Below, piece by piece: positions 1-20,749 of a stretch of 39,294 bases of DNA. Source of the stretch: an uncultured Ruminococcus sp. (GTDB taxonomy: Bacteria > Bacillota > Clostridia > Oscillospirales > Ruminococcaceae); contig CAMOOV010000003.1 of assembly GCA_946621745.1 (NCBI GenBank), forward strand, positions 1 through 39,294, in the 5' to 3' direction. Numbering within the stretch: the stretch's first letter is position 1; every line of letters begins with the position of its first letter. A program made the translations under genes and the position numbers. The notes under the pieces are model-generated. The model was not told where the DNA came from, did not search any database, and saw only the letters and a program-made list of their open reading frames with translations.

Positions 1-181
1 CACGACAAAAATCCTGCGCATCTATTCTTCAAGATTTAATTGGTACATCAATATCTGATTTATCATAACACATTTTTTCGCATCATGTCAAGATTATCGC
101 GGTTTTTGTGTATGATGCACATAGATAATATCATTACGATAGGAACTGACTGTATATAACATAGAATCCGTCCTAAAACAC

Positions 182-210
182 TTGACAAATCTCTATGATA
201 ATGTTATTAT
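182..210 (+). promoter_or_regulatory. promoter of the J-domain/vWA/PurA-like operon
   Basis: TTGACA (182-187), a 17 bp spacer and TATTAT (205-210) form a good vegetative sigma promoter, giving a leader of about 80 nt before the start at 296. The 181 bases upstream are AT-rich and hold no gene that I can see. Confidence 0.65.
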
Positions 211-295
211 GATAATAACAAAATGATATTAGCACAGATTCATTTTTCGGCAGCGTTCATATCATTTTGATTCTATCGCAAGGAGGGGAGTGACT

Positions 296-1273
296 ATGGA
301 TATTTCCGAAATCCTGAAATGCAAATGCTGCAAGGATATCTTTCCGGAGGATCCCGCACTCGCGCAGCCGATCTATCTGGCGCTGATGCTGAAATATCAC
401 CCTGACAGATGCAGCGATCCGAGAGCGCCGGAGGTATCCGCCTTTCTCAACGATATGTTCCGGAGGCTGAAAAAGGCGCACAGCGTCCGCGAAAAGCTGT
501 TCCGGAGCGGAAGCCGTGCCTATGAGATCAGATATCTCATGGCGCTGCCGCAGGAATACGGCACGGAATACATCGGTGAAAACACGGTCTGGCTCTTGAT
601 CGAGGATGATTATGCAGACTGCTTCACACGCTCCGAAGCCCGCACGGATCTGTTTTTCAGGGAAAACCTTCCGCGGCAGATCCTTGCACAGACGGAGGTC
701 TTTCTGCCGCTGGTCAGACGGATCATCAATACCGATGACGGGCTGCTCATAGAGACCGGCAAGCGAACAGGAGAGCTGCCGCTGTCACGGGTGCTGGATT
801 TCTACGGCGGAAAGCCCGACAGCCGGCACGCTGCATGGATGATCTCGCGGCTTCTGGGCATCTGCTGTTATGCGGAGGTGCGGGGGATCGTCTGGAACTG
901 TCTCGCGGAAGAAAATCTCCTTGTCGATCCGGCGGAGCATACGGTCAGAGTCGGCGGGGGATGGTGGTTCGCCGCAGAGGAAGGCGGCAGAATGACCGGC
1001 GCGCAGTCCTCCGTATACGATTGCCTTTCGTCGCTGACAAAGACAAACGGGACTGCCTGTCATATCACCGATCTGGAATGCGTCAAGGCGATCGCAAGGC
1101 GTATATTCCCGGATGATGCGCCGAAAGCGGTGCGGGATTTTGCTGAGAGCATATGCAGCAGCTCGGCATTTGAAGAAATGGAGAAATGGGAACAGGTGAT
1201 CCGAGACGGCTTCGGCGGCAGAAGATTCACGCAGATGAATGTCAGACTGCCTGATATTGCAGAGGCTGTTTAG
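296..1273 (+). CDS. J-domain protein fused to a degenerate kinase-like domain
   Basis: The protein has 325 residues. The first 65 residues resemble a J-domain: the diagnostic HPD tripeptide is at residues 35-37 in YHPDR, followed by a helix resembling J-domain helix III. J-domains stimulate Hsp70 (DnaK) ATPase. From about residue 95 to the end the layout resembles a protein-kinase fold, with a hinge-like LLIE and a catalytic-loop-like stretch VWNCLAEENLLVD (199-211). The His and catalytic Asp expected there are Trp200 and Cys202, and the DFG site reads GGG, so I read it as a pseudokinase (inference). I chose ATG 296 because AGGAGG at 281-286 is 9 nt upstream; GTG 290 is too close. It is first in an operon with a vWA protein and a PurA-like enzyme. 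J-domain moderately sure, pseudokinase less so. Confidence 0.75.
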   Translation: MDISEILKCKCCKDIFPEDPALAQPIYLALMLKYHPDRCSDPRAPEVSAFLNDMFRRLKKAHSVREKLFRSGSRAYEIRYLMALPQEYGTEYIGENTVWLLIEDDYADCFTRSEARTDLFFRENLPRQILAQTEVFLPLVRRIINTDDGLLIETGKRTGELPLSRVLDFYGGKPDSRHAAWMISRLLGICCYAEVRGIVWNCLAEENLLVDPAEHTVRVGGGWWFAAEEGGRMTGAQSSVYDCLSSLTKTNGTACHITDLECVKAIARRIFPDDAPKAVRDFAESICSSSAFEEMEKWEQVIRDGFGGRRFTQMNVRLPDIAEAV

Positions 1274-1334
1274 CAGTCAGCGGACAGACCTTGCATATAC
1301 ACAGGCTGAAATAATGATTACAGGAGGTATAACT

Positions 1335-2243
1335 ATGGGACACGGTGCATGGAGCGCCGCAGATTGGAAGCGGTATGCATCCGCGAATATCAGCGGCAAA
1401 AAGGTCAATGACATTTACAGCGCAACGCAGATCGACAAAAAATACGATCCGAGACTGATTCGTGTCAGAGAGAGCTGTGATTCCGCAGATCACCCCGTTA
1501 CAACACCGATCATCATCGGTCTGGATGTGACAGGCTCTATGAGCGATCTGCTCGATGTGACGGCAAAGCGTCTCGGCGAAATGGTCAAGGATATCATCGA
1601 ACGCCAGCCCGTTGAGGGGCCGCAGATCATGTTCTGCGCGGTCGGTGATTCCAGATGCGACCGTTCGCCCTTGCAGGTCACGCAGTTTGAATCCGATATC
1701 CGCATCGCAAGCCAGCTGACGGAGCTGTGGTTCGAGCGCGGCGGCGGCGGAAATCAGTTCGAGAGCTATCCGCTGGTATGGTATCTTGCTGCGAACAAAA
1801 CAAAAACCGATGCATGGGAAAAGCGGCAGCAGAAGGGCGTGATTTTCACGCTCGGCGATGACGGATATCCGGAGATGCTGCTTGCAAAGGAAATCGAAAA
1901 GGTCTTCGGCGACCGCGTCAGCGAGGATATCAATACAGAGGCGCTGCTGGCGCAGGTCAGCAGACGCTGGGAGGTGTTCCACCTCATGGTCATGGACAGA
2001 CGGAGCGAAAGCACGGTCAAGCTGCCGAAGTGGCGGGAGCTCATGGGCGAAAGAGCGATCTCTGTGACGGATGTCAACGCGATTCCTGAGATCATCGTAT
2101 CGCTGCTGGAATGCGTCGCAGGACGGAATACCGAGGATATCATCAATTCGTGGGACGGCAATACACAGCTTGCTGTCCGGAATGCGCTCGGCGGCCTTCC
2201 GGCACAGAAAAGAGGTCTGCTGAACAGAATCATCCGTTTCTGA
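1335..2243 (+). CDS. von Willebrand factor A (vWA) domain protein
   Basis: The protein has 302 residues. It carries a MIDAS metal-binding motif, DVTGSMS, at residues 64-70, preceded by a hydrophobic beta strand (PIIIGL), and a later TLGDDG loop that fits the distal part of the vWA metal site. vWA domains usually bind protein partners through a Mg2+ ion. There is no signal peptide or membrane segment, so it should be cytoplasmic. The start at 1335 is fixed by AGGAGG 8 nt upstream; the upstream extension of the frame overlaps the previous gene and has no ribosome binding site. It lies 61 nt after the J-domain gene and ends 8 nt before the PurA-like gene, so the three are almost certainly co-transcribed. 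Its partner is probably encoded by a neighbour (inference). Confidence 0.85.
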   Translation: MGHGAWSAADWKRYASANISGKKVNDIYSATQIDKKYDPRLIRVRESCDSADHPVTTPIIIGLDVTGSMSDLLDVTAKRLGEMVKDIIERQPVEGPQIMFCAVGDSRCDRSPLQVTQFESDIRIASQLTELWFERGGGGNQFESYPLVWYLAANKTKTDAWEKRQQKGVIFTLGDDGYPEMLLAKEIEKVFGDRVSEDINTEALLAQVSRRWEVFHLMVMDRRSESTVKLPKWRELMGERAISVTDVNAIPEIIVSLLECVAGRNTEDIINSWDGNTQLAVRNALGGLPAQKRGLLNRIIRF

Positions 2244-2251
2244 GGTGAAAT

Positions 2252-3442
2252 ATGAAAAAAGCATATGCGGTCATCGGCGCCGGTTTCGGCGACGAGGGAA
2301 AAGGTCTGATGACGGATTATTTCTGCCGCAGGGACGGCAGCGTCATCAATATCAGGAGCAACGGCGGTGCGCAGGCAGGTCACACTGTCTGCACCGCCGG
2401 CGGAAAACGGCATATCTTCTCCCACATCGGCTCCGGCAGCTTTGCGGGTGCGGACACCTATCTCTCCGGGTATTTCATCCTGAACCCGATGCTTTTTTCA
2501 AAGGAGCTGCAATTACTCGGAGCGGACGCGGGCAGGATCTTCATTGACCGGCAATGCATCATCACGCTGCCCTGTGATATGCTGCTGAATCAGTTTGCAG
2601 AGACCGTGCGCGGAAGCAATCGGCACGGCAGCTGCGGTGTTGGGATCTTTGAGACGGTCGTCCGCAGCAGGGATATCCGGTACCGTCTGGAGTTCGGCGA
2701 TATCCTGAAAGCAGACAGAAATGCGGTCAGGAGCGCAATGCAAAGGATCCATGCGGAATACTGCATTCAGCGTGCGGATGAACTGGGAATCACCGGCGCG
2801 GCAAAGGCAGAACTGACGGATATGCTTGCTAATGTGAATCTGACAGAGAATTATATTGACGATCTTTATGCTATGGCGGCGGTCTGCATCGCGGCGGATG
2901 CGCAGATCATTGAGGAATACGATACTGCCGTCTTTGAGGGCGCACAGGGACTGATGCTCGATCAGAACCGGGCGGATTATTTCCCGCATCTTACGCCCTC
3001 CAATACGGGAATGCAGAATATCCGTGCCATTCTTGACCGGCTCGAACCGCGTGACACGGAGATATGCTATGTGACAAGGTCTTTCTTTACACGGCACGGC
3101 GCAGGCCGGTTTGATACGGAATCCAAGGACATAGCGGATGCATACGGGCTGTACGACAGGACGAATGCGCCGAATGCATTTCAGGGCGTATTCCGTTACG
3201 GCTGGTTTGATCTTCCGGCATTCACCGGATCCCTTGCGCTGGACAGAAAATATGCCGCAGCGGGTGAGCGAATCGCGGTTGCCGTCACGCATCTGGATAT
3301 GACGGGCGGGATGCTGCTCTGTCCGGAAGAAAGGCTGCGGCCGGAGGAGCTTGCTGACCGGACAGGCACGGATATGCTGTATCTTGTCAGCGGTGAGACA
3401 GCGGCGGATGTGGTCTGTCAGCCTGTGAATCAAATGGCATAA
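2252..3442 (+). CDS. divergent adenylosuccinate synthetase (PurA family)
   Basis: The protein has 396 residues, shorter than the usual 425-430. PurA joins IMP and aspartate using GTP. The P-loop GFGDEGKG (residues 11-18) keeps the catalytic Asp14, and AGHT keeps the catalytic His44. FEGAQG and the SNTG stretch are also typical. The guanine-recognition motif is VTHLD instead of the usual TKLD. The arginine-rich loop normally written TTGRRRR before GWFD is replaced by FQGVFRY, and GTTGRGIGP is replaced by GSCGVGIF. The core is therefore intact but the nucleotide and aspartate contacts are altered, so it may use a different nucleotide or be specialised. Retention of the Asp argues against a PurZ-type enzyme, where I recall that residue being replaced. 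It is third in the operon, 8 nt after the vWA gene. It is unlikely to be the housekeeping purA. Confidence 0.85.
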   Translation: MKKAYAVIGAGFGDEGKGLMTDYFCRRDGSVINIRSNGGAQAGHTVCTAGGKRHIFSHIGSGSFAGADTYLSGYFILNPMLFSKELQLLGADAGRIFIDRQCIITLPCDMLLNQFAETVRGSNRHGSCGVGIFETVVRSRDIRYRLEFGDILKADRNAVRSAMQRIHAEYCIQRADELGITGAAKAELTDMLANVNLTENYIDDLYAMAAVCIAADAQIIEEYDTAVFEGAQGLMLDQNRADYFPHLTPSNTGMQNIRAILDRLEPRDTEICYVTRSFFTRHGAGRFDTESKDIADAYGLYDRTNAPNAFQGVFRYGWFDLPAFTGSLALDRKYAAAGERIAVAVTHLDMTGGMLLCPEERLRPEELADRTGTDMLYLVSGETAADVVCQPVNQMA

Positions 3443-3448
3443 GGAAAA

Positions 3449-3483
3449 GGGAACTGCCTGAATGGAAGCAGTTCCCTTTTTTT
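3449..3483. terminator. bidirectional terminator between the PurA-like and PAP2 genes
   Basis: GGGAACTGC (3449-3457) pairs with GCAGTTCCC (3468-3476) and is followed by seven T residues on the plus strand and by TTTTCC on the minus strand. It can end both the plus operon and the convergent PAP2 gene, whose stop codon lies inside the T run. A nearly identical hairpin in inverted orientation is at 4613-4640. Confidence 0.8.
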
Positions 3484-4454
3484 CATTGTTGGTTCACTGT
3501 CTCTGCTTCAACAGCAGCTTTTTTCGCGGCTTTCATAATCATGACCGGATATACCGTCAAGGCAAGCCCGACCAGGAGAAACGCCGAGATGAAATTGCCC
3601 CAGTGCTTGCCGAACCAGACCTGAAATGTGATCGCGTTCAGGTATTGCCGCCAGATGTAAACAATCGCTGTGCCGACACAGACCGTCACGGGGAGCGTTT
3701 CCGAGCCCTTGGGGATATTGTATCGGATATAATGCCGCTCCGCATAGCTGCCGATCATCAGTCCGATGAATCCGCCTGCACCGGTAAAGGTGTCGTTCAT
3801 CATCTTCTGCGGATCGACCAGCAGGGCGCCGTCAACATAATCCATCGGGTAGGATTTCAGCAGAATGTAAACCAGAACGCCGATCGGAACAAGGATTCCG
3901 CAAACGGTCAGCTTATCGGCAAGGCTGCTGTTTCCTTCGAGCTTTTTCTGAATGAAGCCCGCCGCGCAAATGATCAGCGATGTCTCAATGAATCCCACCA
4001 GCACATCCTGCGGCGTATGCACACCGAGGAAGTTTCGTGAGAATGCGGTCAGCAGGATCATCACGCCGCAGCCAATCGCAAGCAGCCGCCGTTTTTTGTA
4101 CTGCCAGACGGCAGTCGTGCCGTAGGCGGCAGTCGCGCACATCGTATGGCCGCTCGGGAACGAATAGCCTGTCGCTGCGGCCTTGGAATCACCGGCCGGC
4201 AGAATGCGTGCATCTCTGATCCACGGCCGGTACGCACAAACGGTCAGCTTGACTGCGCCGTTGACGACCTCACCGCCCCAGATCGTCGCCAGAAAGCGAT
4301 AGCCCCAGCCCTTGTCTACAGCCCAGAAAATCAGAAAAGGCAGCAGGGGCATGATATCCACTGCAATCTTGGAGATCATATTGAAGAATTCGTCGAGGGC
4401 TCCGTTTGTTGCTTCCCGCAGATTTTGCAGCATAAGCAAATAATCCATATCCAT
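3483..4454 (-). CDS. PAP2-family membrane phosphatase
   Basis: The protein has 323 residues. All three parts of the PAP2 (lipid phosphate phosphatase) active site are present: KLTVCAYRP (K-x6-RP), SFPSGHT (PSGH) and SRNFLGVHTPQD (SR-x5-H-x3-D). Several hydrophobic segments predict a multi-pass membrane protein that dephosphorylates a lipid phosphate such as undecaprenyl pyrophosphate or phosphatidic acid; the substrate cannot be told. I chose ATG 4454 because AAAGGAG is about 10 nt upstream; the longer frame runs into the promoter. After the PAP2 core the C-terminus continues with further membrane helices. The last 60 or so residues recur as a broken copy at 8421-8617. Confidence 0.9.
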   Translation of the reverse strand: MDMDYLLMLQNLREATNGALDEFFNMISKIAVDIMPLLPFLIFWAVDKGWGYRFLATIWGGEVVNGAVKLTVCAYRPWIRDARILPAGDSKAAATGYSFPSGHTMCATAAYGTTAVWQYKKRRLLAIGCGVMILLTAFSRNFLGVHTPQDVLVGFIETSLIICAAGFIQKKLEGNSSLADKLTVCGILVPIGVLVYILLKSYPMDYVDGALLVDPQKMMNDTFTGAGGFIGLMIGSYAERHYIRYNIPKGSETLPVTVCVGTAIVYIWRQYLNAITFQVWFGKHWGNFISAFLLVGLALTVYPVMIMKAAKKAAVEAETVNQQ

Positions 4455-4551
4455 AAAAACATTGCTCCTTTCAATGCAGCAGCGAACAGTCCGGATTCTG
4501 CAAACCGGTTTCCGGATTTCCTGAACCTGATCGCCGTCATTCATTTTTAAT

Positions 4552-4580
4552 ATTATACAATAAGCATACAAAAAAGTCAA
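4552..4580 (-). promoter_or_regulatory. promoter of the PAP2 gene
   Basis: On the minus strand, TTGACT (4575-4580), 17 bp and TATAAT (4552-4557). A 10 bp sequence matching the end of the miniature inverted-repeat element (GGCAATACCG, 4581-4590) directly abuts the -35 box. Confidence 0.7.
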
Positions 4581-4656: not shown

Positions 4657-6039
4657 TTACAGCAGGAGCCGTTTAAGCTGTGTGAGGTCGGCGGCGTTGA
4701 TACTGCCGTTTTCATCGAGATCGGCAGCCTGCACATCGCTGATTACCGCATCCGGTTCGGTCAGCAGCCACTTTTGCAGCAGCACCGCATCGGCGATACT
4801 GCACTCGCCGTCCGCATTCAGATCCCCTCTGACCGCTTTTGCTTCGGCAGTCCGCGGCTGATATGCCTTGCCGCCGATCGCGTACAGCTGCTTTTGCAGA
4901 TCCTGATCCTCCATTTTGTATGTCTCGCGGTTGTAATGTCCGCCGGGCGTTGACCACATGACCGGACAGTGCCCGCGCTGATACGCTTCTTCACAGACCG
5001 CACTCAAAAATCTCCGGACGGATTCCGGCTCCTTGTTTTTGGTCGGACAACCGTATTCTCCGATGATGACCGGAATGCCCTTGTCAGTGAAATGCGATTT
5101 CAGCATATCCATCTCACTGCGGAGGGATGCATAATCCTGCTCGCTGCCCCATGTCGGCGTCGCCTTGCCCCAGTCCGCATCCTCCTCCAGGATCGCAAAT
5201 CCTGCGGGGGAGTAATAGTGGACGGAAACCGCCATCCGGTTCGCGGGATCATTCGGCATCTGAAACATCGCATCACAGGTGCGGTCGATGCCCGTGTTGT
5301 AGCCCGAAATCAGCAGATGGCGCTTTGCATTGTTGCCGCCTGAGCTGCGCACCGTATCCACAAATGCCTGATTGATCTCATTGCAGAGCGCATAGGATTC
5401 CGCCTTGCCGTTTGTTCCGCCCCACGGATTCCAGACGGATTCCCAGCCGAGCTCCTCATTCTGCGATTCAAACATCAGATAATCGTCGTAATCCCGGAAG
5501 CTCGCCGCGATCTGCTCCCACATATGCGTATAGCGCTTCATGCTTTCCTGCTTGTCGTCCGGGAATTTGTTCACCCAGCCGCCGTCCCAGTGGATATTGA
5601 TGATCGCGTACATACCGCATTCCAGCGTCCAGTCTACGATCTGATGCACCCGCGCATCATAAGCGCTGTCGATCGTATAGCTGCCGTCGTGCTGCATCCG
5701 GTTCGACCATGCGACGGGGATGCGCAGAACGCCGAAGCCTTCCCTGGCGATGCCCTCGATCATTTCCTTCGTGATGACCGGGCTGCCCCATGCGGTTTCA
5801 TAGTTTTCCGGCTTGCCCTCGCTCCATTTCGCGATCCAGTCCTCCTCGTACCAGTTCGCGCAGGATTCCAGCGTATTGCCGAGATTGATGCCGATTCCCA
5901 TATCGCGCACCAGCTCCATTGTGGTGATGTCGCGCATTCCGGAATCCGGTGCGGCGGCAGATGCCGTTCCCGCTGTGTATGTGCAGGATGCCGTCAGAAC
6001 TGCTGCGAGCATTCCTGCGGTGATCTGTCTGATTTTCAT
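4657..6039 (-). CDS. secreted GH5 endoglucanase with C-terminal type I dockerin
   Basis: The protein has 460 residues. A signal peptide covers about residues 1-28 (KIR start, hydrophobic core, ASA cleavage site). The GH5 catalytic domain runs from about 38 to 390: GINLGNTLE near the start, HWDGGW at 150-155, the acid/base Glu195 in ESQNEELG and the nucleophile Glu328 in IIGEYG. This layout is typical of cellulases and xyloglucanases (subfamily 4-like, not certain). Residues 404-460 form a type I dockerin with two Ca-binding repeats (DLNADGECSIADAVLLQKWL and DLDENGSINAADLTQLKRLL) that would bind a cohesin on a scaffoldin. AAAGGAG precedes ATG 6039. Its promoter is just after the regulator gene at 6148-8307, with a paired repeat between them, suggesting control by that regulator. 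Confidence 0.95.
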   Translation of the reverse strand: MKIRQITAGMLAAVLTASCTYTAGTASAAAPDSGMRDITTMELVRDMGIGINLGNTLESCANWYEEDWIAKWSEGKPENYETAWGSPVITKEMIEGIAREGFGVLRIPVAWSNRMQHDGSYTIDSAYDARVHQIVDWTLECGMYAIINIHWDGGWVNKFPDDKQESMKRYTHMWEQIAASFRDYDDYLMFESQNEELGWESVWNPWGGTNGKAESYALCNEINQAFVDTVRSSGGNNAKRHLLISGYNTGIDRTCDAMFQMPNDPANRMAVSVHYYSPAGFAILEEDADWGKATPTWGSEQDYASLRSEMDMLKSHFTDKGIPVIIGEYGCPTKNKEPESVRRFLSAVCEEAYQRGHCPVMWSTPGGHYNRETYKMEDQDLQKQLYAIGGKAYQPRTAEAKAVRGDLNADGECSIADAVLLQKWLLTEPDAVISDVQAADLDENGSINAADLTQLKRLLL

Positions 6040-6147: not shown

Positions 6148-8307
6148 CTATTTCTCGAAAATCCTCCGGAACCGCTGCGGTGTGATGCCGGTGAATTTGC
6201 TGAACTGATGCAGGAAGAATTTGGCGTCGCTGTAGCCGCAGAGCTCCGCGATCTCCGTTGTCGTCATGGCCGTCGTCAGCAGCAGATATTTGCATTTGCA
6301 GATGCGGGCGTGAATGCGATCCTTCTGAAAGCTGATGCCGAAGCATTTTTTATAGCTGTGCCGGAAGGTGTCTGCATCCAGCGCTGCCGCCTTTGCGGGA
6401 TTGAACGGCTGAAAGGTATCCAGCGGCGCACACCACACCGCATTGCGCAGCGCGGAAAGCTGCTTGTAACGGTAGCTGCCGCGGCGGCTGCGGATGATCT
6501 CCGTCTGCACGCGGTTCTGTTCGCAGCAGTCCGCATAGACCGCATCATAGCTGCGTTCGCCGCAGCGGGCGTAAGCGCATACAAACGAATCCGCGCCGTA
6601 TTCTGTGATATAATCTGTGCTTTGCAGCAGCGCCGCAGTGATCGCCCCGCAGATCTGTTCCGCATCCCCGCCGGAAAACAGCAACACAAATGCGCCGCTG
6701 TCCGTGCGCGCCATGATCGCCGCATCCCTGCAAAGCGTGCGCAGATCATCTGCTGTCCTGCGGATGATGCCGAAGCGCTGCTCCTGCCGCAGCGGTTCAG
6801 CCGTTCCCTCAAACAGTCCGGTCTGCATCACGGTCATGAAGCAGTCCCGTTCGCCGGTTTCGGTAAAGCTGCCGTAGAGCTGCCGGATGCCCTTTTCACT
6901 GTAAAGCCCCGTCATACTGTCTGTGCGATCGGACATATTCTGACAGTGCAGGAGATAATGCAGGTCGCTTTTCATCCGGAGATTTTCCAGTGCAAGGGAC
7001 GCGGTTTTCAGCCAGTATCGCAGAAAATCGTCATAGCAGAGCGGTGCATTGTATTGCAGAACGGCGTAGCCCATGTAATGCCGCTTCAAAAACAGCGGGA
7101 GACAGTAGAATGCAGCAGGCATATCGGGCAGCCATGACAGATCGTCCGCACCGGCCGTAAACGGCGTGTTGTCCAGCCACGGCGTGATGCATCTGCATGA
7201 AACGGTCTGCTCCGGCGCGGCAGAGAGATCGTACCAGTTTGTACAGAGACAGAGCCAGAGCGCGGCCGCATCCGTCAGCATCCACTGATCGCGGCCGAGA
7301 ATGCTGCAAAAATCCTCCAGCTTCCGGCTGTCCGCGAGCGCCAGCTCCATGCCGTTGAAAATCGTGAGGAATTCCCTGTCATGCCGCTTCTGCGCGGCAA
7401 GCAGCTCGCTGTCATATTCCGGCAGCTCGCAGGTGCAGGGGCAGCTTCTTCCGTGGATGATCTCGCCGCGGGGCGGTTCAGATATCTGCGGCTTTTCACC
7501 GGCGATCATGCAGAGCGCGGCCTCCGCTGCACTGCGTCCGAGCTCCCGTCTGGCACGGCGGTAGCAGGTGAGCAGCGGGCGGTACAGGATCCGCTCGTCG
7601 GAATAATCATAGCTGACGACGGTGATCTGTTCGGGTACGCGGATTCCTGCCGCTGCAAAAGTCCGCAGCATACCGTATGCCATATAGCAGCTCGCGCAGA
7701 CCACGGCCTGCGGCATCGGCAGCTCGCCGCGGATATACCGTTCGGCAAGTGCGCTGCCGGAATCAAACCAGAAATCGCCGTAATGAATCCGCTGCGGCTC
7801 TGCGGGAATCCCGTAAGCGCCGAGCGCTCTGAGATAGCCCTCTCTGCGGCGCTGTGACGGCTCGGAACCGGGATAACCGGTCAGCAGGTCGATGCTGCGG
7901 AAGCCGTGCGCCGTAATCAGATGGGCAGTCAGGGCTTCCATATCCGCCGCGTCATCGGTGTTCAGATAAAAGCAGCGCTCCGGCGGAAAGCCCGCCAGCT
8001 CTGCACCGGCTGCAATGACCGGCAGATTCAGGTTTTTCACGGTCTGTGCAAGCTGCTGCTTCTGCTTCTCATCGGAGAAGGATTCCGTCAGGATCAGCAG
8101 AGCATCCAGCGCATCTGCGCGGACAAGATCATAGATCTGCTGCTCGCCGGTCACATCTGTGCTGTCGCTGAAATTCAGCAGATTCGAGATGATGACGGCA
8201 GTCGAGCCGCGGGACAGCAGCACCTCGGCTGCGCCTTTGATGATCTCGCTCTCCGCATAGCCGCTGGCATAGGCGGTCACAATTCCGATCGTCGGACGGT
8301 GCTTCAC
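6148..8307 (-). CDS. AraC-type transcriptional regulator with LacI/PBP-like sensor and degenerate GGDEF-like region
   Basis: The protein has 719 residues. Residues 4-285 look like a LacI/periplasmic-binding-protein fold (TIGIVTAYASGYAESEIIKG at the start, then PQAVVCASCYMAYGML and ITVVSYD), which normally binds a sugar. There is no signal peptide, so the sensor is cytoplasmic. A middle region of about 200 residues is uncharacterised. Around residue 465, DSMTGLYSEKG resembles the start of a GGDEF domain, but the signature is replaced by RTDSGAFVLLF, so no diguanylate cyclase activity is expected. The last 85 residues are an AraC HTH with the second helix-turn-helix TEIAELCGYSDAKFFLHQF. It is probably a carbohydrate-responsive activator of the adjoining GH5 gene (inference). 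Its promoter is at 8331-8359. Confidence 0.85.
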   Translation of the reverse strand: MKHRPTIGIVTAYASGYAESEIIKGAAEVLLSRGSTAVIISNLLNFSDSTDVTGEQQIYDLVRADALDALLILTESFSDEKQKQQLAQTVKNLNLPVIAAGAELAGFPPERCFYLNTDDAADMEALTAHLITAHGFRSIDLLTGYPGSEPSQRRREGYLRALGAYGIPAEPQRIHYGDFWFDSGSALAERYIRGELPMPQAVVCASCYMAYGMLRTFAAAGIRVPEQITVVSYDYSDERILYRPLLTCYRRARRELGRSAAEAALCMIAGEKPQISEPPRGEIIHGRSCPCTCELPEYDSELLAAQKRHDREFLTIFNGMELALADSRKLEDFCSILGRDQWMLTDAAALWLCLCTNWYDLSAAPEQTVSCRCITPWLDNTPFTAGADDLSWLPDMPAAFYCLPLFLKRHYMGYAVLQYNAPLCYDDFLRYWLKTASLALENLRMKSDLHYLLHCQNMSDRTDSMTGLYSEKGIRQLYGSFTETGERDCFMTVMQTGLFEGTAEPLRQEQRFGIIRRTADDLRTLCRDAAIMARTDSGAFVLLFSGGDAEQICGAITAALLQSTDYITEYGADSFVCAYARCGERSYDAVYADCCEQNRVQTEIIRSRRGSYRYKQLSALRNAVWCAPLDTFQPFNPAKAAALDADTFRHSYKKCFGISFQKDRIHARICKCKYLLLTTAMTTTEIAELCGYSDAKFFLHQFSKFTGITPQRFRRIFEK

Positions 8308-17995: not shown

Positions 17996-18193
17996 ATCAA
18001 GATTCTGAAAGCAGGATCAGAAAGGAAGTTTTTCCGATGAACGCATTTGCACTGCTCGCGCTTCGACTTACGGTCTTGGCTGATTGCTTAAGGCCTGCTT
18101 CGTCATGCACGGGCGTTTTTTGAGAAAATCGGAAAAACGAAAACCATGCGGAAAAATGACGGTGTGAGGCTTTGAGCTTCACACCGTTTTTTT
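17996..18193 (+). ncRNA. candidate structured leader or stand-alone small RNA of about 200 nt
   Basis: This transcript starts at a consensus promoter and ends at a strong terminator. GTTTTTCCGAT (18028-18038) and ATCGGAAAAAC (18128-18138) are perfect complements of 11 bp that close a domain of about 110 nt. Inside, AACGC (18040-18044) can pair with GCGTT (18113-18117). A 28-codon reading frame with a GGAAG site (18037-18123) lies within the domain, but its start would be buried in the helix. The whole may be an attenuating leader for the gene at 18224 or an independent RNA; its size and closed shape would also suit a 6S RNA, which I cannot confirm. Confidence 0.5.
18160..18193 (+). terminator. 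intrinsic terminator in front of the ligase fusion gene
   Basis: CGGTGTGAGGC (18160-18170) pairs with GCTTCACACCG (18176-18186) with one G-U pair, then seven T residues. It sits only 30 nt before the start codon at 18224, and I see no second promoter in between. Confidence 0.8.
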
Positions 18194-18223
18194 GCGTATA
18201 AAGCCGATACTGGAGGTATCACT

Positions 18224-20749
18224 ATGAAAATCTGTTTCTCTACACTGGGCTGTCCGGATTTTGAATGGCCGGATGTCTACTCCATGGCAAAGGATCTGGG
18301 CTTTGACGGCATTGAGCTGCGCTCTTACGGCATTCCCGCAGATCCTTACCGCTCGAAGCCCTTTACCGGTGCGCAGCTCCCGAAGACCGCAGCGAAGCTC
18401 CGCTCGCTCGGACTGGAGATCCCGTGCATCAGCTCCAACTGCTGCCTGAATGAAAAGGACAACGAGGAGCAGAACCGCAAGGAGCTGCGGGCAGTTATGG
18501 AGCTGGCTCATGCCCTCGGCGCACCGTATGTGCGTGTGCTGGGTGACCGCTACTCTGAGGTGACAGGCGAGGTTGACGACGCATATGTGGCATCTGTACT
18601 GACATCGCTGATTCCCGAAGCGGAGGAGGCAGGCGTGACGCTTCTGGTTGAAACAAACGGCGTATTCAGCAACACCAAGCGTCTGAAGGCGCTGCTGGAT
18701 CAGATCGGCAGCATCCGCGTTGCGGCCGTCTGGGATATGCATCATCCCTATCGCTACGGCGGCGAATCGCCGGAGCAGACCGTCGCGAATCTCGGCAATT
18801 ATATCAAATTCGTCCAGACAAAGGACAGCTCCTTTACGAACGGCATTCTCCGCTATGAGCTGATGGGCAGAGGCGATCTGCCGCTCGACGATATGATGGC
18901 GGCGCTCGGCAGCATCAATTATACCGGCTTTGTTTCGCTGGAATGGGTCAAGCGCTGGATGCCGGAGCTGTCGGATGCAGGCATTGTGTTCCCGCAGTTC
19001 GCGGATTACATGAGCCGCTACCGCACCAAGTATAAGCATGAATTGCAGGTCAGCAACCGCGGCACCGGTTATTATCCGTGGCCGAAGGAGCGCCTCATCA
19101 ACTATACATTCCCGGATGTGCTCGACCGCATCTGCGAGCAGTTCCCGAATCAGTATGCATTCCGCTACACCGAGCTGGATTATTCGCGCACCTATCCGCA
19201 GTTCCGCGACGATGTGGACACCTTTGCCCGCGCACTGATTGCAATGGGCGTCAGCGCAGGCGACAAGGTTGCAATCTGGGCGACCAATGTGCCGGCATGG
19301 TTTATCACCTTCTGGGCAACGACCAAGATCGGCGCGGTGCTGGTCACATTCAACACCGGCAACAAGATCCACGAGACGGAATATGTCCTCAAGCAGTCCG
19401 ATACGCATACGCTGGTCATGATTGACGGCTACAAGGGCACGGACTACAATGACATCATGCGCAAGCTGATCCCGGAGCTGGCGGATTCCGAGCCGGGCTG
19501 CCTGCATTCGGAGAAATTCCCGTTCCTGCGCAATGTCATTACGATTGAGAGCCGTCAGCCGGGCTGCTTCACATGGGATGAGGCCGTTGCGAAGTATACG
19601 GAGGTGCCGCTGACCGAGGTCGAGCGCCGCAGACGCAATATCAAAAAGGATGATGTTGCAAATATGCAGTATACCTCCGGTACGACCGGCTTCCCGAAGG
19701 GCGTCATGCTGACACATTATAATGTCGTCAATAACGGCAAGGCGATCGGTGACTGCATGGATCTCTCGACCGAGGACAGAATGATGATTCAGGTGCCGAT
19801 GTTCCACTGCTTCGGCATGGTTCTGGCGATGACTGCTTCTGTCACGCACGGCGTTACGATGTCCCCGATCACGGCATTCTCGCCGCGCAAGGGTCTGGAC
19901 TGCATCAACCGCGAGAAGATCACCTGCTTCCACGGCGTTCCGACGATGTTCATTGCAATGCTCGGTCATGAGAACTTCGCTAAGACCGATTTCTCTCACA
20001 TGAGAACCGGTATCATGGCCGGATCGCCCTGCCCGATCAAGACCATGCAGGAGGTCATCGAAAAGATGCATATGCCGGAAATCTGCATTACCTACGGTCA
20101 GACCGAGGCATCTCCCGCAACGACCATGTCCAAGACAACGGATTCGATCGAAGCCCGCGTGAATACGGTCGGCGGCCCGATCTTCGGCGTTGAATGCAAG
20201 ATCGTCGATCCGGAGACCGGCGAGGAGGTTCCGGACGGCGTGGACGGCGAATTCTGCGCCCGCGGCTACAATATCATGAAGGGCTATTACAAGATGCCCG
20301 AAGCAACGGCGGCTGTCATCGACGAGGACGGCTGGCTGCATTCCGGCGACCTCGCCCGCAGACTGCCGGAGAGCGGCTATTTCAAGATCACCGGCCGCAT
20401 CAAGGATATGATCATCCGCGGCGGCGAGAATCTCTATCCGAAGGAGATCGAGGACTTTATCTATACGCATCCGGATGTCCGCGATGTGCAGGTCATCGGT
20501 GTGCCGGATAAGCAGTACGGCGAGGAGGCAATGGCCTGTGTCATCCGTCAGGAGGGTGCGACCTGCACCGAGGATGATATCAAGGAATATGTCCGCACAC
20601 ATATGGACAAGACAAAGGTTCCGCGCTATGTGCGCTTTGTCGATGCATTCCCGATGAATGCGGCAGGCAAGATCCTGAAATACAAGATGCGCGAGGAAGC
20701 GGTCGATTACCTCAACCTCCACGAAGCAAATAACATTGTCACTGCATAA
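18224..20749 (+). CDS. TIM-barrel isomerase-like domain fused to an AMP-forming acyl-CoA ligase
   Basis: The protein has 841 residues. Residues 1-265 resemble the sugar phosphate isomerase/epimerase (AP endonuclease 2) TIM barrel: MKICFSTLGCPDFEW, GFDGIELRSYG, LLVETNGVFSN and AAVWDMHHPYRYGG, with Glu, Asp and His that can bind metal. Residues 290-835 are a complete acyl-CoA synthetase: YTSGTTGFPKG ATP loop, YGQTEASP, the DEDGWLHSGD motif, GRIKDMIIRGGENLYP hinge and the catalytic Lys in NAAGKILKYKMR. The ligase activates a carboxylic acid with ATP and CoA; the substrate is unknown. GGAGG precedes ATG 18224. Codon use is continuous across the join, so this is a true fusion, not a frame error. 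The promoter and terminator upstream suggest regulated readthrough. Confidence 0.9.
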   Translation: MKICFSTLGCPDFEWPDVYSMAKDLGFDGIELRSYGIPADPYRSKPFTGAQLPKTAAKLRSLGLEIPCISSNCCLNEKDNEEQNRKELRAVMELAHALGAPYVRVLGDRYSEVTGEVDDAYVASVLTSLIPEAEEAGVTLLVETNGVFSNTKRLKALLDQIGSIRVAAVWDMHHPYRYGGESPEQTVANLGNYIKFVQTKDSSFTNGILRYELMGRGDLPLDDMMAALGSINYTGFVSLEWVKRWMPELSDAGIVFPQFADYMSRYRTKYKHELQVSNRGTGYYPWPKERLINYTFPDVLDRICEQFPNQYAFRYTELDYSRTYPQFRDDVDTFARALIAMGVSAGDKVAIWATNVPAWFITFWATTKIGAVLVTFNTGNKIHETEYVLKQSDTHTLVMIDGYKGTDYNDIMRKLIPELADSEPGCLHSEKFPFLRNVITIESRQPGCFTWDEAVAKYTEVPLTEVERRRRNIKKDDVANMQYTSGTTGFPKGVMLTHYNVVNNGKAIGDCMDLSTEDRMMIQVPMFHCFGMVLAMTASVTHGVTMSPITAFSPRKGLDCINREKITCFHGVPTMFIAMLGHENFAKTDFSHMRTGIMAGSPCPIKTMQEVIEKMHMPEICITYGQTEASPATTMSKTTDSIEARVNTVGGPIFGVECKIVDPETGEEVPDGVDGEFCARGYNIMKGYYKMPEATAAVIDEDGWLHSGDLARRLPESGYFKITGRIKDMIIRGGENLYPKEIEDFIYTHPDVRDVQVIGVPDKQYGEEAMACVIRQEGATCTEDDIKEYVRTHMDKTKVPRYVRFVDAFPMNAAGKILKYKMREEAVDYLNLHEANNIVTA

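Follow-up and report, generated by a model that had tools for sequence, protein, structure and literature searches.

Positions 1 to 39,294 of contig CAMOOV010000003.1, from an uncultured Ruminococcus sp. (GenBank assembly GCA_946621745.1) and here called the window, begin with an operon of three + strand genes: J (296..1273), encoding a J-domain fused to a protein-kinase fold; V (1335..2243), encoding a vWA protein with an intact metal-ion-dependent adhesion site (MIDAS); and P (2252..3442), encoding an enzyme that by sequence has the fold of adenylosuccinate synthetase, PurA. Our analysis indicates that this three-gene unit, JVP, is probably a single, old and mobile functional unit tied to the metabolism of nicotinamide adenine dinucleotide (NAD+) and ADP-ribose. 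The NAD link is supported; the substrate and chemistry of P we infer. The trio is kept together in chromosomes of Bacillota and Pseudomonadota, in plasmids of Actinomycetota and in isolated phages, a strong sign of a so far unrecognised biochemical function, and no description of it was recognised in the literature of openly licensed PubMed Central (PMC) papers.

Conservation and spread of the JVP unit

Loci were collected around V, as the best 80 of at least 548 relatives in GTDB species genomes (19 of these 80 being of Ruminococcus type) and the best 80 of 306 in IMG/VR, and around P, as the best 80 of 499 in IMG/VR, on contigs shared with the V set. Profiles of J, V and P were iterated on the fetched loci, and gene order was counted where at least 1.2 kb downstream (for P) or 1.3 kb upstream (for J) was present. 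Seen from V, the genome loci have a same-strand P downstream in 76 of 76, within 200 nt in 70, and J upstream in 67 of 75, always within 200 nt; the viral loci have P downstream in 75 of 78 (52 within 200 nt, 12 at 200-1000 nt, 11 further) and J upstream in 43 of 75. Seen from P, V is present in 75 of the 80 viral loci, directly upstream within 3 kb in 73, and none of these P proteins bears the TTGR aspartate loop of PurA. Among 30 genomes of the window's genus, P-type matches (351-498 bits) occur in seven, exactly those that bear V, and adjoin it; the other matches in the genus score no higher than 116 bits, the level of canonical purA. The P-centred tests thus removed the bias of the V-centred counts and left their sense unchanged. 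Distances between V proteins and between their P partners are correlated (0.76 over 119 loci; at most 0.14 in shuffles). That the three genes act together, as the initial annotation argued from their spacing, is strongly supported, the order being kept in distantly related bacteria, in plasmids and in phages: the homologues are mostly found together, from the V side and from the P side alike, and JVP is far wider than one window could show.

Searched by tblastn, 50,697 phage records yielded V in 207 and P in 223, of which Mycobacterium phages make up 188 and 189; the two lists also share 10 Rhizobium, six Vibrio and one human-faecal phage record. The extra P matches (Listeria, Salmonella, Acinetobacter, Staphylococcus and other phages) are P apart from V, or ordinary purA relatives. 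J was reached by the same search in only 113 phage records, all from Mycobacterium phages. The order in Mycobacterium phage LinStu is kinase, vWA, short gene, PurA-like, and V is followed by P in Vibrio phage Va1, Rhizobium phage TM30 and the faecal phage. V is also carried by 21 plasmid records. In the annotated records looked at, P is labelled "adenylosuccinate synthetase" or similar and V "hypothetical protein".

The unit is rare and patchily distributed: at a limit of E 1e-20 the window's own genome was the only one to have it among 398 sampled from the same phylum, and seven of 61 relatives of the window genome have it. In a tree of 136 V proteins viral and bacterial rows are mixed, with 16 label changes, nine of them forced by well supported branches; some of the labels on metagenome-assembled genomes may be mis-binned, such as a cyanobacterial contig nested among Competibacteraceae. 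JVP has been exchanged repeatedly between viruses and hosts, in one direction or the other, at least nine label changes being forced. The term "phage-derived" in the initial annotation is apt to the extent that viral and bacterial copies are intermixed. At one locus (L042:11114-12858) three small open reading frames (ORFs) with the common start MKxRxDFVTNSSSSSF adjoin the JVP unit.

NAD and ADP-ribose genes beside JVP

In bacteria, 149 neighbours from 43 non-redundant genome loci matched 143 Pfam families, the commonest being NrtR_WHD (17), NUDIX (16), AraR_C (7), Isochorismatase (5), NAPRTase (4), PARG (3) and ABC transporter (3). On the viral side 141 of 264 neighbours were scanned, from the first loci by number, and gave NAPRTase and NAMPT_N (5 each), NUDIX (4), and NADAR, CTP_transf_like, Thg1, RNA ligase, Band_7 and Metallophos (3 each). 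Of ten chosen neighbours compared with NCBIfam, two scored over cut-off as nicotinate phosphoribosyltransferase, two as NadM-Nudix, and one each as nicotinamidase, NAD synthase and riboflavin-intermediate N-glycosidase (NADAR type).

At least one of eight NAD/ADP-ribose profiles is matched near JVP in 51 of 80 genome loci, 24 of the 43 non-redundant genome loci and 17 of 80 viral loci, and an NrtR-type profile match lies within 1.5 kb in 47 of the 80 genome loci, one of these (L049) being NadM-Nudix. When JVP and canonical purA were compared within the same 16 genomes, an NAD/ADP-ribose gene was near JVP in nine and near purA in none; the eight profiles were trained on JVP neighbours, which favours JVP loci over the purA controls, and two of the control flanks fell short of the planned length, at 11.0 and 8.5 kb. 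Plasmids lie outside that training set, and the two looked at among the 21 have the orders NUDIX-J-V-P (Agrobacterium vitis) and J-V-P-NUDIX (Rhodococcus opacus), their Nudix proteins scoring 180 and 82 bits, respectively, against the NrtR-type profile. An NAMPT/NAPRT gene is present in six of 13 viral records that were searched whole. The link to NrtR-type regulators and NAD salvage makes the function of JVP testable: it predicts an activity that is called up on NAD+ breakdown, a central theme of phage defence.

P keeps the catalytic core of PurA and lacks its aspartate-binding loop

The window P matches Pfam Adenylsucc_synt (PF00709) with 136 bits and falls far below the purA equivalogs, at 105 bits against a cut-off of 395.6 (TIGR00184) and 107 against 402 (NF002223). 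It retains D14, K17, H44, Q232 and T248. For the family, 136 of 141 P rows (five of at least 480 amino acids were dropped) were aligned with 17 of 18 canonical PurA sequences (one gave no ORF with the motif) taken from the genome of the window and from further JVP genomes. The catalytic Asp and His are kept in 135 of the 136 P rows, with one gap each, and Gln232 in all 136; the P-loop Lys is kept, and the base-reading Asp position holds D in 112 and N in 23. The TTGR aspartate loop, present in 14 of the 17 canonical proteins, is found in none of the 141 P sequences. At the alignment columns that we assign to R303 and R305 of E. coli, all 17 canonical rows have Arg; P has there mostly Thr, Ser, Asn or Ala and Leu or Phe, respectively, with one residue deleted between them. 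We take R305 to be an aspartate contact, and the numbering of the other PurA residues is likewise the one we assume. R303 of PurA contacts free aspartate (PMC8342488). P has invariants of its own: R276, H282, N305 and Q311, each in 136 of 136 rows.

Since the catalytic core is kept and the residues of the aspartate site are lost, we predict retained activation with a changed amine partner: on the evidence of the alignment, P should still activate a 6-oxopurine nucleotide with a nucleoside triphosphate (NTP), probably guanosine triphosphate (GTP), and should not take free aspartate in the usual way. Two P genes, in a Paenibacillus genome (L073:6980-9289) and a viral contig (L119:3403-5925), carry inteins, named by eye, directly after the catalytic His motif, a position that fits an important active site.

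P is a second gene beside true purA. A separate full-length purA was present in the window's own genome (G000), in 16 of 16 further genomes, and in all seven JVP genomes of the genus, as the second match; the PurA-like gene is therefore not the sole purA in any JVP genome checked, and a spare purA was ruled out on this ground. Nor is P a PurZ, the paralogue found in phages: the PurZ model gives it 42 bits against a cut-off of 300, and the catalytic Asp that P keeps is Ser in all 147 phage PurZ sequences reported in the text of PMC12884076. The "modified base" of the initial annotation, taken in the PurZ sense, therefore had to be abandoned. The tree described in the same source holds 767 sequences, 251 in an E. 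coli-type group and 151 in a PurZ group; P may lie among the rest, outside both groups.

J is a J-domain pseudokinase and V a vWA protein

Pfam DnaJ matches the window J weakly, below cut-off (E 0.0046), and 75 of 94 J family members at E <= 0.01; the family profile, searched by sequence against the PDB, matches J-domains and kinases. The AlphaFold model of J (pLDDT 96) finds DnaJ-PKA chimeras as its top PDB matches (E 1e-8), with a TM-score of only 0.42-0.47 over the two domains. The HPD motif lies at residues 35-37 of the window protein and is kept across the family (H in 88, P in 86 and D in 89 of 90 rows). The kinase motifs are not kept: the position of the HRD Asp holds Asp in only nine of 90 rows, and that of the DFG Asp is Gly in 81 of 90, inside a conserved GGWW. 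In the alignment the window J has C and G at these two positions, with GGW where kinases have DFG. An active protein kinase was thus ruled out for most of the family, nine rows keeping the HRD-position Asp and the Mycobacterium phage copy the DFG-type Asp; and because both are lost in most rows, the kinase fold is, by its sequence, most likely a scaffold or ligand sensor. In a variant from four relatives (loci L010-L013; genomes G003, G004, G020 and G024) a Zn-ribbon-like N-terminus replaces the J-domain and V is doubled in tandem; NrtR-type genes are on other contigs there.

The window V has no Pfam match, and a sequence search of the PDB gives no relative at E 1; a Pfam vWA model is reached at E <= 0.01 by only one of 87 V members. 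The window protein matches phrog_2971 (E 6e-47). Its MIDAS is intact (D64-x-T66-x-S68, D175), and its model (pLDDT 91) has a vWA-type fold, with chains of integrins and vWA proteins as matches (E 4e-6 at best, TM-score about 0.4). Conservation is highest in V, with a mean column identity of 46%, against 33% for P and 29% for J, in row sets that differ. The three proteins are accordingly what the initial annotation took them for: a J-domain with a kinase fold lacking the catalytic residues, a vWA protein with a MIDAS, and an altered adenylosuccinate synthetase. JVP also supplies a naturally occurring J-domain pseudokinase and an enzyme of PurA fold with a predicted change of second substrate.

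Operon layout and control region

The extent of the operon (296-3442), its gaps (61 nt between J and V, 8 nt between V and P) and its reading as a transcript from one promoter to one terminator are borne out by the sequence. V starts at 1335 (MG..), a Met conserved in 132 of 136 rows; an in-frame ATG at 1239 is not the conserved start. The promoter, TTGACA-17-TATTAT at 182..210 on the + strand, agrees with the consensus at 11 of 12 positions and is kept in Ruminococcus relatives; as promoter-like sites in 1-3700 number four against 3.0 expected, its weight rests on that conservation. Behind P, at 3442..3483 (+), lies an intrinsic terminator, a strong hairpin with a T run (-22 kcal/mol, z -4.9); it was missed by a simple scanner that considers only loops of 3-8.

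A divergent promoter of sigma70 type, TTGACA-18-TATGAT at 62..91 on the - strand (11/12), faces an NrtR-type gene in close relatives; in one of these, L018 (Ruminococcus UBA4350), the NrtR-type ORF lies on the - strand to the left of it. The intergenic region between this divergent gene and J is conserved in Ruminococcus relatives. It contains operator-like sites with the consensus TAATATCATTTTGATA: at 126..141 (+, two mismatches), at 216..231 (-, one mismatch), directly 3' of the -10 box, and at 257..272 (+, two mismatches), 5' of the ribosome-binding site. With up to three mismatches the consensus occurs six times in the window, five of them in the control region, against 0.32 expected; it was derived from the same region in relatives, so matches there are partly circular. 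In the whole genome six sites have up to two mismatches, three of them the operon's, and a reversed control pattern gives two. The further sites adjoin genes of dockerin-type, LacI-type regulator, efp, HPr/trmD-type and prophage-type proteins, named by eye. The near-identical operon of L018 has a stop codon inside the J-domain (J lying upstream of locus base 2996), an assembly error or a decayed copy.

A tentative function, and its rivals

We tentatively propose, with less assurance than for the unit as such, that JVP is a chaperone-coupled, GTP-driven purine-nucleotide ligase of an NAD+/ADP-ribose stress response. Breakdown of NAD+ would yield ADP-ribose, which is predicted to release the NrtR-type repressor and so turn the operon on. 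P would then use GTP, as PurA does, to phosphorylate O6 of inosine monophosphate (IMP) or a related hypoxanthine nucleotide, and would couple the activated nucleotide to an amine, though not to free aspartate. A protein partner might be bound, unfolded or presented by V, with Mg in its MIDAS, and by J, which would recruit Hsp70 through HPD and use its pseudokinase as a scaffold. A protein is the most likely acceptor, or client, because of the MIDAS of V and the J-domain pseudokinase with its Hsp70. The phage copies would help to repair host metabolism or host proteins once NAD+-depleting or ADP-ribosylating defences have acted. The furthest-reaching form of the proposal, a new class of protein modification in which a GTP-driven PurA-fold ligase, guided by chaperones, links a purine nucleotide to an amino group of a client protein that the MIDAS vWA and the J-domain pseudokinase hold with Hsp70, the whole being switched on by ADP-ribose through NrtR and shared by bacteria and large phages to answer NAD+ breakdown, is in our view distinctly unlikely.

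Several observations weigh against a single NAD-linked unit, or against parts of this proposal. V and P share their nearest neighbour in only 43% of the 119 loci. Of 75 viral loci 32 lack J, and in 20 of these 32 an unrelated Met-rich protein takes its place; given this and the Zn-ribbon-like N-terminus in four relatives, Hsp70 recruitment is not essential everywhere. The Met-rich proteins (ORFs of 193-394 amino acids forming one single-linkage cluster) lie upstream of V at L003:6252-6965, L004:5717-6544 and L006:8495-9103 and in 21 viral loci, and occur in none of the 43 viral loci with J; of three members scanned, none matched a PHROG or reached the cut-off of a Pfam family. On the NAD side, 19 of the 43 non-redundant bacterial loci and 63 of the 80 viral loci match none of the eight NAD/ADP-ribose profiles, some of their flanks being short; four phage records searched whole (L003-L006) lack an NAMPT/NAPRT gene; and three NrtR-like repressor examples scored below the NCBIfam cut-off. 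NrtR-family proteins can, moreover, sense other ligands, AraR_C being matched by seven of the 149 bacterial neighbours.

The control region adds to these points. The window contig, which begins at base 1, does not carry the NrtR-type regulator gene, and the match to the start of this gene in relatives has been lost in bases 1-43. Elsewhere in the genome, the genes next to operator-like sites have no relation to NAD, and in the two nearest relatives (G019 and G023) the consensus has no match with up to one mismatch; the operator was accordingly set aside as a guide to a wider regulon, and, for the same two reasons, in Ruminococcus the regulator may be dedicated to the JVP operon alone. We infer its ligand there from its family alone. 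Contact between V, J and P and the activity of P are likewise predictions from sequence.

The main rival to a protein ligase is a small-molecule product: P would make a small diffusible nucleotide, either an aminated NAD-type dinucleotide or an IMP amide or amine adduct, that serves as a signal or in repair, while V and J merely regulate or fold P. Proteins of the vWA and J families are often chaperones or scaffolds for enzymes, NAD and nucleotide-salvage enzymes are frequent partners of JVP, and the retained NTP/6-oxopurine core of P would serve this chemistry too; on the other hand, among the top 25 neighbour families no downstream enzyme or sensor dedicated to such a product stands out, the NrtR-type regulator excepted, and V, as the best conserved of the three, would be an odd mere helper. 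We hold this explanation to be rather doubtful. Much the same degree of doubt attaches to a conflict system between phage and bacterium, serving anti-defence in phages, by repair after an NAD+-depleting defence, and stress or defence in bacteria. The NAMPT/NAPRT genes of the whole viral records, the NADAR, NadM-type, RNA ligase and Thg1 genes that adjoin some viral copies, the rarity of JVP in bacteria and its repeated virus-host exchange would all suit such a role. PADLOC, however, gives no match for J or P and a weak Csx1 match for V (E 0.00085), on which a known defence system was ruled out, and no defence-type family is among the top 25 bacterial neighbour families (by Pfam; PADLOC was not applied to neighbours). 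The "conflict or stress system" of the initial annotation is, then, plausible and also unspecific, the NAD/ADP-ribose link being invisible from one window.

A chaperone for the assembly of virions or other large complexes, with V and J remodelling proteins as proposed for the MoxR-vWA pairs of jumbo phages, is very unlikely: DnaJ and MoxR-vWA chaperones are indeed described in jumbo phages (in the text of PMC7824862), but JVP is also found in bacterial chromosomes and plasmids, where NrtR-type genes often lie nearby and the top 25 bacterial neighbour families include none of virions; MoxR is not among the top 25 neighbour families either, and P would be left unexplained. That P is PurZ-like, making a modified DNA base, or just a spare purA is scarcely credible: its match to PHROG 1211 (E 4e-61; label "2-aminooxy adenylosuccinate synthetase") is outweighed by the kept catalytic Asp, the low PurZ score, the lost aspartate loop and the separate purA.

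Surroundings of the operon in the window

Beyond the terminator the window has a cellulosome-type Ruminococcus setting. A PAP2-family protein (3483-4580, -) adjoins a family 5 cellulase with a type I dockerin (4657-6039, -), followed by a 719-amino-acid regulator (6148-8307, -) with a LacI-type sugar-binding domain and a C-terminal AraC-type helix-turn-helix. At 18179-20749 long ORFs overlap, of 847 amino acids on the - strand and 841 on the + strand; the 847-amino-acid ORF has no Pfam match at E 1e-4.

Comparison with known systems

The TerY-P triad consists of a vWA protein, a kinase and a phosphatase. JVP is like it in that a vWA protein adjoins a kinase-fold protein, and in the Zn-ribbon-like N-terminus of the variant loci; it differs in that its kinase is dead and a PurA-like enzyme is added, and PP2C is not among the top 25 neighbour families of JVP loci. 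The ternary MoxR-vWA (VMAP) systems, as outlined in PMC7159879, share with JVP an operonic vWA protein with chaperone-type partners; their effectors vary, whereas JVP has a constant PurA-like partner. MoxR AAA+ proteins are not among its top 25 neighbour families; in the window, the contig extends for only 295 bp upstream of J.

With PurA itself (PF00709), P has in common the fold, the P-loop, the catalytic Asp13 and His41 and several IMP contacts; it is set apart by the missing TTGR loop, R303 and R305, by its own invariant residues, and by adjoining V in nearly all loci seen, as a second gene besides true purA. The PurZ/PurZ0 enzymes of 2-aminoadenine phages resemble P in being phage-carried PurA paralogues, and differ from it at the catalytic Asp, as described above from PMC12884076.

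A further relation is to NrtR-controlled NAD operons and the viral NAD+-ADP-ribose networks of PMC9503650, whose components recur beside JVP: NrtR, NAMPT/NAPRT, PncA, NadM, NadE, NADAR, PARG and RNA ligase. The main text of that paper does not contain "adenylosuccin", "DnaJ" or "PurA", and no PurA-like enzyme or J-domain pseudokinase was noticed in it; it does mention that ADP-ribosylglycohydrolase systems with regulators of the Nudix or WYL type can include a vWA chaperone. By analogy of its neighbours, phage JVP fits the NAD+-ADP-ribose networks outlined there.

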